From Fibrobacter intestinalis (GTDB lineage Bacteria; Fibrobacterota; Fibrobacteria; Fibrobacterales; Fibrobacteraceae), in the NCBI RefSeq assembly GCF_900167415.1, contig NZ_FUWU01000029.1:1-39429 (forward strand): a stretch of DNA of 39,429 bases, given 5' to 3'. The notes under the pieces were generated by a model that was given only the letters and a program-made list of their open reading frames with translations, ran no database searches and was not told the DNA's origin. Numbering within the stretch: position 1 is the stretch's first letter; each line of letters begins with the position of its first letter. The position numbers and the translations under genes were made by a program. This document shows, piece by piece, positions 3,316 through 35,417 of the stretch.

Positions 3316-3360
3316 CAATGCGGATGTTTTCTTTTTTCCTTGCGGATCACGAGATGCTTC

Positions 3361-3422
3361 GCTTCCTTTAGGCGAATTGCCTCTTTTAGGACGGAATCGG
3401 AGATTTCAAGTTCCAGGGATGC
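3361..3422. repeat. Dispersed composite intergenic repeat, copy 1
   Basis: Two modules, GCTTCCTTTAGGCGAATTG (3361-3379) and a 32-bp module beginning ACGGAATCGGAGAT (3391-3422), recur almost unchanged in the repeat cluster at 34.9-35.4 kb. No coding potential is convincing here. The gap between the mdh terminator and potC (3316-3655) consists of this repeat, a GTT/AAC heptad array, and unassigned sequence. Confidence 0.7.
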
Positions 3423-3548
3423 TCGCCCCATGGGCTGCCCCTTTTCCCTTCACCCTATTCCCCGCCACGCTTTGTAGTTGGAAGTTTTGGTTTGGTGGGG
3501 TGGAATTGGATGTTGCGCCATAGCGAGAAGGGGAAACTCGGTTATCAG

Positions 3549-3590
3549 TTCCAACTTCCAACTTCCAACTTCCAACTTCCAACTAACCAC
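3549..3590. repeat. Heptanucleotide tandem array (TTCCAAC)6
   Basis: Six perfect head-to-tail copies of TTCCAAC. It is followed by TAACCAC and preceded about 60 bases upstream by GTAGTTGGAAGTT, the inverse orientation of the same theme. Comparable period-7 arrays lie near 10.0, 24.2 and 34.7 kb. Confidence 0.95.
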
Positions 3591-3655
3591 TACCCAAGCG
3601 AATCGGGTGGAATTTTGTATATAAGCCTTCAATTTTTGTTCGTACTTCCGCGGTT

Positions 3656-10023: not shown

Positions 10024-10085
10024 GGAAGTTGGGAGTTATGAGTTGGAACTAATAACTGAAAACTGATAACTGATAACTGATAACC
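10024..10085. repeat. Period-7 GTT/AAC repeat array
   Basis: GTT occurs at 10028, 10035 and 10042 and AAC at 10047, 10054, 10061, 10068, 10075 and 10082, always seven bases apart. The tetranucleotide between changes (for example AACTAAT, AACTGAA, AACTGAT). Orientation flips once in the middle. It lies between the convergent M29 and GH51 genes. Confidence 0.9.
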
Positions 10086-10189
10086 GAATTTCCCTTGCGA
10101 AAAGAAAGTTCTCGTTTTGAAAATTTAATCGCGAGTATTTGGCGGGGGAGTGCATATCCCCCTATTTTTAATCCGTTCCTTTGATAACG

Positions 10190-14861: not shown

Positions 14862-15083
14862 GACGTTGATCCATTCGCCTGCTTTCTCTTTTTAGGGGCT
14901 TATGTATAAAATTCCTCTCGATTCGCTTGTCATCGCTTCGCTTGCCCAAATCTCGTAATCTGCGAAAAAAGCACCTTGCGAAAAAGATGTTCACACCGGT
15001 CACGGCTTTGGCGCATGTCGATCAAGCATGCTGTGTTGGAGGAAAAAATATTTGTCTGCGCTAAAAGAAATCCATACGAACAA

Positions 15084-23150: not shown

Positions 23151-24116
23151 ATGACAGATGTGTTGGAACTTTCACAAAGAATTATCGATGGGTACCGCAT
23201 TCAACGGGGCGACGACCTTTCTTTTTTTCTGACCTGCGATTTGGAAAAACTGGAAACCGGCGCAGGAAAAATCCAAAGGCATTTTCGCAAAAATCACGTG
23301 GATCTTTGCACGATTATCAATGGACGCAGCGGAAGATGTCCGGAAAATTGCAAGTACTGCGCGCAGTCGGCGCACAATAAAACCGGCTGCGAAGAGTATC
23401 CGTTCTTGCCGAAAGAAAAAATTCTTGCAGAAGCCAAAAGCAATGCGGAAGCGGGGGTGAACCGTTTTGCCATCGTGACCGCGGGCAGGGCGTTAAGCGG
23501 GAGTGAATTCGACCGGGCGATAGAAGCTTATCAGGAAATGCGGGCGACGCTGCCTTTGGGGCTTTGCGCTAGCATGGGATTTCTTTCTGCCGAGCAGCTG
23601 CATCGTTTGCGTATGGCGGGAGTCAGCAATTACCATCACAACATCGAAACGAGTCGCCGTAATTTTCCGAATATCTGCACGACTCACACTTATGACGACA
23701 AAATCCGCGAAATCAAGATGGCGCAGGCGGAAGGCTTGCAGGTCTGTTCCGGCGGTATTGTCGGCATGGGAGAAACCTGGGAAGACCGCATCGATATGGC
23801 GATAAGCCTTTCGGAATTGCATATTTTGTCCATTCCGATCAATGCGCTCATGCCGATTCCTGGTTCGCCATTGGGACATTTGCACCAGATTTCCGCCGAC
23901 GATCTGATGCGCACCATTGCCATTTTCCGCTACATCAATCCGGAAGCGGATATTCGACTTGCCGCCGGTCGCAAAATTATGAAAGACTTTGGCGAAAAGG
24001 CTTTTGTGTCGGGCGCGAGCGCTACGATTACGGGCGACATGCTTACCACCAGCGGCACCACGATTCGCGGGGATTTTGAAATTTTGAAAAAACTGGGCCT
24101 TACGAACCGGGAGTGA
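23151..24116 (+). CDS. bioB: Biotin synthase
   Basis: 321 residues from the ATG at 23151, which lies 4 bases after the clpC stop and has GAGGG 8 bases upstream; an in-frame upstream extension overlaps clpC and is rejected. Radical-SAM enzyme: C63, C67 and C70 in GRCPENCKYC hold the 4Fe-4S cluster. YHHNIETSRR, GGIVGMGE and the C-terminal SGASATITGDMLTT are typical of BioB. It inserts sulfur into dethiobiotin. Other biotin genes are not here; the link with clpC looks like operon hitch-hiking. It ends directly before a repeat array. Confidence 0.93.
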   Translation: MTDVLELSQRIIDGYRIQRGDDLSFFLTCDLEKLETGAGKIQRHFRKNHVDLCTIINGRSGRCPENCKYCAQSAHNKTGCEEYPFLPKEKILAEAKSNAEAGVNRFAIVTAGRALSGSEFDRAIEAYQEMRATLPLGLCASMGFLSAEQLHRLRMAGVSNYHHNIETSRRNFPNICTTHTYDDKIREIKMAQAEGLQVCSGGIVGMGETWEDRIDMAISLSELHILSIPINALMPIPGSPLGHLHQISADDLMRTIAIFRYINPEADIRLAAGRKIMKDFGEKAFVSGASATITGDMLTTSGTTIRGDFEILKKLGLTNRE

Positions 24117-24130
24117 ATTTAGTGGTTAGT

Positions 24131-24150
24131 GCCCTTCGACAAGCTTAGGG
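24131..24150. repeat. Half of a CCCTTCGA-type palindromic element
   Basis: GCCCTTCGACAAGCTTAGGG is one arm of the widespread intergenic palindrome whose other arm reads like TGAGCCTG-TCGAAGGGC. A complete pair is present at 34768-34827. Confidence 0.6.
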
Positions 24151-24158
24151 ATCGGTTG

Positions 24159-24306
24159 AGAGTTAAGAGTTAAGAATTAGGAGTTAGGAGTTAGGAGTTA
24201 GGAGTTAGGAGTTAAAACTGAAAACTAATAACTAATAACTAATAACTAATAACTAATAACTAATAACTAATAACTAATAACTAATAACTAATAACTAATA
24301 ACTAAT
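24159..24306. repeat. Long period-7 GTT/AAC array next to ybaK
   Basis: The left part has degenerate AGAGTTA/AGAATTA units and five perfect TTAGGAG copies (24177-24211). After a short switch, twelve perfect AACTAAT copies fill 24223-24306. The last copy contains the stop codon of ybaK (minus-strand TAG at 24304-24302). Confidence 0.95.
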
Positions 24307-24805
24307 ATTTTCCCTTTTCCGTTTTGGGACCGGCGATGGCGGCAACCGTTGCATGGACAGTCTGGATTAAATCCTTGGGTGAAATTTTCAGTTGCATTCC
24401 CCGGACTCCGGCACTGACGTAGATGAAGTCGAATTGCAGTGCTGTTTCGTGGATGAAAATCGGGAAAGGCTTTTTGAGTCCGATGGGAGAGCAGCCTCCA
24501 CGGATATATCCCGTCAGGGGCTGCAATTCCTTGAGCGGAACGGTTTCAACGCTTTTGTTTTGGCTTGCCTTGGCCAGGGATTTCAGGACAATCTCCAGAT
24601 TGCCGGGGACGACGCCGATGATTGGCCCGGTCTTGTCTCCGCGGACAAGGATGGTTTTGAAAACGCGTTCAATCGGTTCTTGAAGACTTTCGGCGATGTG
24701 TTCCGCGCCTAAATCGTTTTCATCGACAGGGTAAGGGATGAGTTCGTAGGCGATGCCTTTTTGATCGAGAAGCCGTGCGGCGTTGGTCTTTTTATTTTCT
24801 TTCAT
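24302..24805 (-). CDS. ybaK: Cys-tRNA(Pro) deacylase, YbaK/EbsC family
   Basis: 167 residues, family length. It hydrolyses mischarged Cys-tRNA(Pro). Visible family features are the catalytic lysine in RVFKTILVR (K50), the GVVPGNLEIVLKSLAKA segment, GYIRGGCSPIGLKK and the C-terminal YVSAGVRGMQLKISPKDL. The final codons run into the heptad array, so repeat length changes could alter only the stop context. It lies 12 bases downstream of cobB on the same strand, forming M20-cobB-ybaK. Confidence 0.92.
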   Translation of the reverse strand: MKENKKTNAARLLDQKGIAYELIPYPVDENDLGAEHIAESLQEPIERVFKTILVRGDKTGPIIGVVPGNLEIVLKSLAKASQNKSVETVPLKELQPLTGYIRGGCSPIGLKKPFPIFIHETALQFDFIYVSAGVRGMQLKISPKDLIQTVHATVAAIAGPKTEKGKY

Positions 24806-34644: not shown

Positions 34645-34690
34645 GCCGCTTTTAAATGGCTAGGCAAATTCTTTCACACGGTGAACTCGG

Positions 34691-34760
34691 TTCTTAGTTC
34701 TCAGTTCCCAGTTTCAACTCCCAACTTCCAACTTCCAACTTCCAACTTCCGACTTCCAAC
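34691..34760. repeat. Period-7 GTT/AAC array
   Basis: GTT occurs with seven-base spacing on the left (TTAGTTC, TCAGTTC, CCAGTTT) and switches at about 34712 to seven AAC-type units ending 34760: TTTCAAC, TCCCAAC, three TTCCAAC, TTCCGAC, TTCCAAC. A further short run of CACTAAC-like units lies at 34832-34859. Confidence 0.9.
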
Positions 34761-34767
34761 CGGTCCC

Positions 34768-34827
34768 TGCCCTTCGATAAACTCAGGAACCGCCGGTTAG
34801 TGAGCCTGCTGAACTAGTCGAAGGGCA
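34768..34827. repeat. CCCTTCGA-type intergenic palindrome (both arms)
   Basis: Arms TGCCCTTCGATAAACTCAGG and TGAGCCTGCTGAACTAGTCG + AAGGGCA form a long imperfect hairpin around a CCGCCGGTTAG centre. One arm of the same family is at 24131-24150. Confidence 0.7.
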
Positions 34828-34883
34828 CAGATCACTAACCGCTAACCACTAACTACTAACTTGTTTTCAGAGATTCTTCAACT

Positions 34884-35417
34884 ACGGAATCGGAGATTCC
34901 AAGTTTCAGGGATGCAGCACCGCGGCAATCATGTCAGCGGCACGTCATTGCGAGCAAGGCCCCATGAGCCTTGGAAGCTCTGCTTCCTTTAGGCGAATTG
35001 TCCCTTCCAGGGATACTTCAACTACGGAATCGGAGATTCCTAGTTTCAGGGATGCGCAGCCGAAGCAATCTGTGCTGGCACCTCGTCATTGCGAGCCGCG
35101 ATAGCGGCCCATGAGCCTTGGAAGCTCTGCTTCCCTTAGGCGAATTGTGCAAAGCCGTGGCAATCTTGTCAGCGGAAAAGGATTGCTTCTACACTTCGAG
35201 TATAACTCCACTAAGGTAACAAAGTTACCAAGTGTCGTATATCCACATAGAGTATAACTCCACTAAGTCAATAAATTGACAAGTGTCGTATAACCCCTGT
35301 AGGGCTCGCAATGACGATCGCTTCCAAATATGGCTGATTTTCTCCTTGACGGGAGCGCAATGACGGTCCCTTCCAGGGATACTTCAACTACGGAATCGAA
35401 GATTCCAAGTTTCAGGG
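34884..35417. repeat. Cluster of dispersed composite repeats
   Basis: The 32-bp ACGGAATCGGAGAT module appears at 34884-34915, 35024-35055 and (slightly changed) 35390-35417. The GCTTCC(C/T)TTAGGCGAATTG module is at 34982-35000 and 35129-35147. CGTCATTGCGAG elements lie at 34943-34954, 35084-35095 and inverted at 35305-35316. Pieces of CCCATGAGCCTTGGAAGCTC join them. No convincing protein-coding frame exists between 34645 and 35559. Confidence 0.8.
35198..35301. repeat. Two tandem 52-bp units with conserved flanks and covarying centres
   Basis: Unit 1 (35198-35249) and unit 2 (35250-35301) share GAGTATAACTCCACTAAG on the left and AAGTGTCGTATA on the right. Their centres differ, yet each is self-complementary: GGTAAC-AAA-GTTACC in one and GTCAA-TAAA-TTGAC in the other. 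TATA and CACT on the left can also pair with TATA and AGTG on the right, leaving asymmetric bulges. The pair sits inside a GATTGCTTC...CTCGCAATGACG element. Confidence 0.9.

Follow-up and report, generated by a model that had tools for sequence, protein, structure and literature searches.

Heptamer arrays in a Fibrobacter genome as the probable core of an IS1595-type MITE family

To understand why one short core recurs every seven bases at scattered intergenic sites of a bacterial genome, we analysed a 39,429-bp window (the whole stretch of DNA under study) from Fibrobacter intestinalis together with its genome (Fibrobacterota/Fibrobacteraceae, 3.29 Mb, 116 contigs). A preliminary description had reported GTT-type units followed by twelve AACTAAT copies at 24159-24306 and further arrays near 3549, 10024 and 34691, and had suggested that a fixed AAC/GTT with variable neighbours marks either a binding site or a repeat-making process. 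The array at 24160-24306 was found as described. Its left arm of AGTT units of the GAGTTAG type spans 24160-24214; AACTGAA comes next, and then exactly twelve copies of AACTAAT (24223-24306). On the plus strand, eight 7-bp units with an AGTT core (one AATT), mostly AGGAGTT, occupy 24161-24213, a two-base flip centre (AGTT-AA-AACT) lies at 24214-24215, and the right arm of AACTGAA and the twelve AACTAAT units extends over 24216-24306. The other three arrays are also present, at approximately 3547-3584 (minus strand; (GGAAGTT)n-GG-AACT as read on the purine-rich strand, with one inverted unit), 10027-10084 (plus strand; a GG centre and a right arm of the AACTGAT type) and 34696-34747 (minus strand; a GA centre). 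The flip in orientation, previously noted for three arrays, thus occurs in all four.

The general form of the arrays is (..AGTT)n-NN-(AACT...)m, or RRNAGTT...RR...AACTRAN on the purine-rich strand. Throughout the genome, three AACT units at 7-bp spacing gave 96+96 (192) matches against 1+0 for the reversed control, and five units gave 43+17 against none. When spacers of 0-12 bases were allowed at the orientation flips, every match listed had a spacer of 2 or 9 bases (control, 0). The spacer of 9 equals 2 plus one 7-bp unit with a degenerate core, leaving the centre in phase. Positional information from 248 left and 198 right units reached 1.4-1.8 bits at the four core positions of the right arm, 1.1-1.8 bits in the left-arm core and 0.1-1.25 bits elsewhere, the core figures being somewhat inflated because units were admitted on a loose core criterion. 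The period-7 core is therefore real, but it comprises the four bases AACT/AGTT, not AAC/GTT. Nor are the remaining bases freely variable, as had been assumed; they are mostly purines on one strand in both arms, the left triplet being rich in G and the right one GA(T/G/A). For this reason the arms, which had been thought foldable, can pair at AGTT/AACT but not at the triplets, and they fold weakly. DNA folding of the 24160 array gave -14.5 kcal/mol against -9.1 +/- 2.2 for shuffled sequences with an unpaired centroid, and we rejected a structural role as a hairpin on this basis.

The order of the units also appears to be inherited. Several elements have the central order GAC-GAA-AAT-GAT in common and differ from each other by whole 7-bp units, in their counts of GGGAGTT or AACTGAT. 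Neighbouring units are identical in 23% of adjacent pairs, compared with 9-11% for units taken from different arrays. Both observations are as expected if the arrays descend from a small number of progenitors and have also undergone local duplications of 7 bp. Why AACT is conserved better than the rest is accounted for only in part: ascertainment contributes, as does expansion from a palindromic centre, and selection is possible.

Array statistics come from 747 kb of DNA fetched mostly around arrays and from the whole-genome pattern searches. The fetched DNA contains 58 arrays of at least four units. Using a simple codon-based gene caller, all 47 assessable arrays were intergenic, in 12 convergent, 15 divergent and 20 tandem gene intervals, without a strong preference. 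The other 11 arrays lie near contig ends, as expected because repeats break assemblies. Even though three of the window arrays reside between convergent genes, a terminator or convergent-gene role was rejected, as the classes are mixed genome-wide.

Once the arrays were aligned by strand, conserved flanks emerged. We mapped seven modules with blastn, which follow a fixed order and orientation, A-B-C-array-E-F, and make up one dispersed directional element. Modules A and F are mutually inverted and form the terminal inverted repeats (TIRs), with the sequence GGGA(A/C/T)TTATATACAA..TTCCACC and sharp ends at GGG/CCC; the ends carry GGGAATTATATACAATCTTCCACC. Module F resembles a promoter (TTGCGA-N-TATAAT-like), a role that we rejected because it is an inverted copy of module A and is also found at the 3' ends of genes. 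MITE modules accompany 44 of the 58 arrays on the same strand: 8 have both TIRs, 29 have one and 7 only inner modules. The other 14 have module B only or no MITE module. The TIR pattern matches 68 times in this genome, and one full element used as a query retrieved 61 further places.

We found 19 TIR-bounded elements, many of 177-404 bp, eight of which are flanked by perfect AT-rich 8-bp target duplications (TSDs): TTTTTTTG, AAATTTTT, CATTTTTT, AAAATAAA, AAATTTTA, GAAAATTT, AATTTTTT and CATTCTAT. The TSD score summed over the 19 elements was 104, against 40 +/- 9.7 in 1000 shuffles with a maximum of 71.5; a first TSD test with 14 pairs stood at 1 of 1000 shuffles. Two elements of 296 and 297 bp (L183 and L256), both without an array, are almost the same in sequence yet lie between different target duplications, an indication of recent movement. 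Around the TSD-bearing element L176 and the array at 3547, the flanking genes are not adjacent in the same-genus genomes. Short, non-coding and TIR-bounded, with TSDs of fixed length and many dispersed copies without a transposase, the family matches a MITE in these respects.

The TIRs of such elements should also occur on an autonomous element, and we identified one in a relative (G103). There, two TIRs at a distance of 4466 bp, which match each other exactly over 24 bases and are flanked on both sides by TTTTTTTT, bound a 4.47-kb transposon (L181:3675-8140), whose inverted repeats are the same as, or nearly identical to, the MITE ends. It encodes a 310-residue transposase of the IS1595 family (PF12762, E=4e-46; NF033547, E=5e-62) composed of a zinc ribbon (PF12760) and a DDE_Tnp_IS1595 domain. 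Three further open reading frames of 130, 149 and 772 residues in the same transposon, without Pfam matches, are passenger genes. Members of the IS1595 family have been reported with 8-bp TSDs (PMC8101967), and the MITEs, likewise, have 8-bp TSDs and ends starting with GG. The insertion sequence ISApl4 combines GG-starting TIRs with A/T-rich 8-bp repeats, AAATTTTT among them (PMC12561309). Like such elements, the full-length relative in G103 carries the zinc-ribbon and DDE_Tnp_IS1595 transposase; unlike them, the copies in the Fibrobacter genome have no transposase, and no matching transposase was found in its assembly. The only IS1595 relative in the assembly shows 26% identity and has different ends (GGCTCTGTTC.CCCA), so we rejected it as the partner of the MITE.

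The other three window arrays, besides the one at 24160, also have modules in their surroundings. The array at 3547 adjoins module A, the left TIR, at 3595-3629 (minus strand, 96.8% match to the A consensus) and module E2 of the MITE body at 3480-3543 (minus strand); the body of the element matches the genome at dozens of further places. Next to the 10027 array, 10079-10157 (plus strand) contains module E1 (10079-10123) and a degenerate module F, the right TIR (10122-10157). In the module map, module E1 adjoins the 34696 array at 34663-34692 (minus strand), and the segment 34768-34860, with no strand assigned, holds an inverted module B (34768-34792) and module C (34826-34860), a heptamer of the CTAACCA/TTAGTGG type.

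The window contains other repeats as well. The fetched DNA contains module B (CCCTTCGACAGGCTCAGGGACC; in the window at 34768-34830, among other places) about 40 times, frequently in inverted or doubled form; as it is also present apart from arrays, it could be a repeat in its own right. A diverged left-TIR-like sequence (GGGGCTTATGTATAAAATTCCTCTCGATTCGCTTGT) lies at 14895-14930, in a gap between genes that has no array. A different repeat family, of the CTACGGAATCGGAGATTCCAAGTTTCAGGGATGC type, is found at 3353-3436, 34884-34915 and 34974-35055, and the genome has some 25 or more copies besides these. At 35190-35310, GAGTATAACTCCACTAAG...CAAGTGTCGTATA appears twice with a spacing of about 60 bp, forming a short pair of repeats whose cores are inverted. 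Elsewhere in the fetched DNA, a second dispersed module (GGCCTCTAAAAATTCATTTTCAAAAAATCGGTTGC... / GGCCTCTAAAAATTCATTTTCAAAAAATCGGTTGCATTAGAGTGGCTAG) has about 25 matches, sometimes beside AACT arrays (L125:6691-6734, L136:5486-5533, L157:6723-6768, L149:6730-6772 and others); we rejected it as a second MITE, as no inverted pairs were found in the fetched DNA.

The array at 24160 resides in an inserted segment (24117-24301, plus strand) between the stop codons of a biotin synthase gene (23151-24116, plus strand) and a gene for an aminoacyl-tRNA editing domain (24302-24805, minus strand), both identified by Pfam. The stop codon of the editing gene (CTA on the plus strand, 24302-24304) sits within the last AACTAAT unit. 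Fibrobacter sp. MAGs were the closest named relatives found with the tRNA-editing protein. In three Fibrobacter sp. MAGs (L045-L047) the two reading frames abut or overlap by a few bases, whereas about 185 extra bases separate them in the window. Because the genes abut without a spacer in the MAGs, the segment was either acquired on the lineage studied here or deleted in each of the three relatives, acquisition being the simpler account. The array has the standard centre, and module B (CCCTTCGACAAGCTTAGGGATCGG) lies directly to its left at 24130-24155 (plus strand), as in other copies on the blastn map; the locus has no recognisable TIRs and no TSD. The array is linked to the MITE family, of which it was presumably once a full member, by its module B, its conserved centre and the empty site in the relatives.

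We therefore consider it highly probable (roughly 0.88) that the arrays are the length-variable core of a non-autonomous MITE family mobilised, now or formerly, by an IS1595-family DDE transposase. A transposase acting in trans would have recognised the MITE ends and placed the copies in AT-rich DNA between genes. Heptamers beside the palindromic centre AGTT-RR-AACT may have multiplied in 7-bp steps by slippage, by recombination between arrays, or by both. Each copy would have inherited the unit order of its progenitor and added local duplications, so that the tetranucleotides vary from array to array around a core that remains much alike. One or both ends would since have disappeared from many copies, the one at 24160-24306 among them. 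Of the two options raised earlier, a repeat-making process is borne out, namely the transposition of a composite TIR element. The pattern is real, yet largely ordinary mobile DNA in its explanation, since the arrays represent the stretchable middle of a MITE.

The alternative that survives best, even though we regard it as unlikely, is that the heptamer cassette (C-B-array) constitutes a separate insertion or recombination unit, which entered the MITE and also other sites such as 24160. The 14 arrays without other MITE modules, some of them adjoining an unrelated dispersed module, are consistent with this, as is the 24117-24301 insertion with its module B and array but no TIRs. However, no boundary motif was found for such a cassette, and truncated MITEs give the same picture because erosion of TIRs and TSDs is common, as the 29 arrays with one TIR only illustrate. 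Arrays may nevertheless sometimes move or arise apart from the MITE.

Related arrays in other genomes bring in a broader idea. Arrays of AACT-core heptamers have a patchy distribution (65 of 168 Fibrobacterota genomes), and the two-base centre recurs only occasionally outside this genome. The sister genus g4 has different arrays, a fixed 32-bp (AACTCTC)4AACT (loci L213, L214 and L272-L290 in G050; L210 and L215 in G046 and G047). In G050, a MAG, 19 of 21 sampled 32-bp arrays lie in sense within open reading frames, compared with 48% for random positions. Their host genes include those for an alanine racemase, a MiaB-like radical SAM protein and an HlyD-like protein; the insert adds a peptide like LNSQLSTLNSQL to its host protein, and its left border is often poly-A. 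Rickettsia palindromic elements are insertions into coding sequences, and the 32-bp arrays resemble them in position. These arrays are a phenomenon separate from the MITE arrays. It is doubtful, slightly more so than for the cassette, that AACT-core arrays are a self-propagating satellite-like sequence with different carriers, a MITE here and a 32-bp in-gene insert in the sister genus, with the TAACTGA repeats of Beggiatoaceae and Cyanobacteria as further cases.

Those TAACTGA repeats, known from Beggiatoaceae, Cyanobacteria and Bacteroidetes, match at the level of the unit, as AACTGAT of the right arm is the same heptamer in another phase. They are also mostly intergenic and patchy across taxa, with related heptamers mixed in in some genomes; the scatter came with no transfer mechanism found and no carrier element named (PMC4679880). 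Our arrays differ in residing within a TIR element and in having AGTT-type heptamers in an opposed arm. The likeness raises the explanation that the neighbouring genes are controlled by a DNA- or RNA-binding protein of the host whose target is either the AACT heptamer repeat or the AGTT-NN-AACT dyad, as has been suggested for the TAACTGA repeats of Beggiatoaceae. The right-arm consensus AACTGA(T/G/A) corresponds to a heptamer proposed as a regulator target (PMC4679880), the core is better conserved than its flanking bases, and the dyad spacing is invariant. However, in the genome studied best, most TAACTGA repeats directly precede start codons (PMC4679880), whereas the present arrays show no such placement among their mixed gene intervals. 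Conserved flanks, TIRs and TSDs indicate descent by transposition, which in itself explains the invariant centre. Heptamer arrays are absent or nearly so in all five same-genus genomes, and this speaks against a function conserved in the host. The TIR pattern has two matches in one of these genomes and none in the other four, and at most two in each of the other family genomes tested; one genome of the genus (G140) holds decayed modules A, B and C. The binding site suggested earlier is thus not supported, and we consider this explanation very improbable.

Least probable of all, by a narrow step, is that simple slippage created each intergenic array independently without a mobile element: the 7-bp copy-number changes, the local homogeneity of units and the many other Fibrobacterota genomes with heptamer arrays lacking these TIRs are in its favour, but the phased two-base centre in every listed flip, the module order, TIRs, TSDs and empty site speak against it, and since slippage cannot create shared flanks, it is contradicted for the 44 module-bearing arrays and might still apply to some among the 14 with module B only or none. 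The earlier remark that plain slippage of one unit is insufficient proved correct.

Among known systems, BrickBuilt and MITE464/PgRS of Porphyromonas gingivalis are likewise intergenic bacterial MITEs with an internal tandem repeat of variable length, TIRs matching a full-length insertion sequence and many copies without one or both TIRs (PMC4596501). Their units of 23 or 41 nucleotides run in one direction between IS5-type TIRs, and their TSDs have irregular lengths (PMC4596501), whereas the units of the present MITE are 7 bp long and form two opposed arms around a fixed dyad, its TIRs are of the IS1595 type and its TSDs are uniformly 8 bp. The G-rich heptamers of Xanthomonas and Nostoc, GGGAATC and GGGGA(T/C)T, are similarly abundant, intergenic and tandem and vary in length between relatives; they were studied as quadruplex formers and are reported to be generally unconnected with mobile elements (PMC4692102). 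Tandem repeats inside bacterial MITEs were thus known from P. gingivalis; what is new is the combination of an IS1595-type MITE with heptamers in two opposed arms and a fixed dyad. Such a MITE, with the TAACTGA-type heptamer inside it, is a concrete carrier to look for in other genomes, and where dispersed arrays show an invariant dyad and a conserved core, these can result from common ancestry through transposition and are not in themselves a sign of a binding site.
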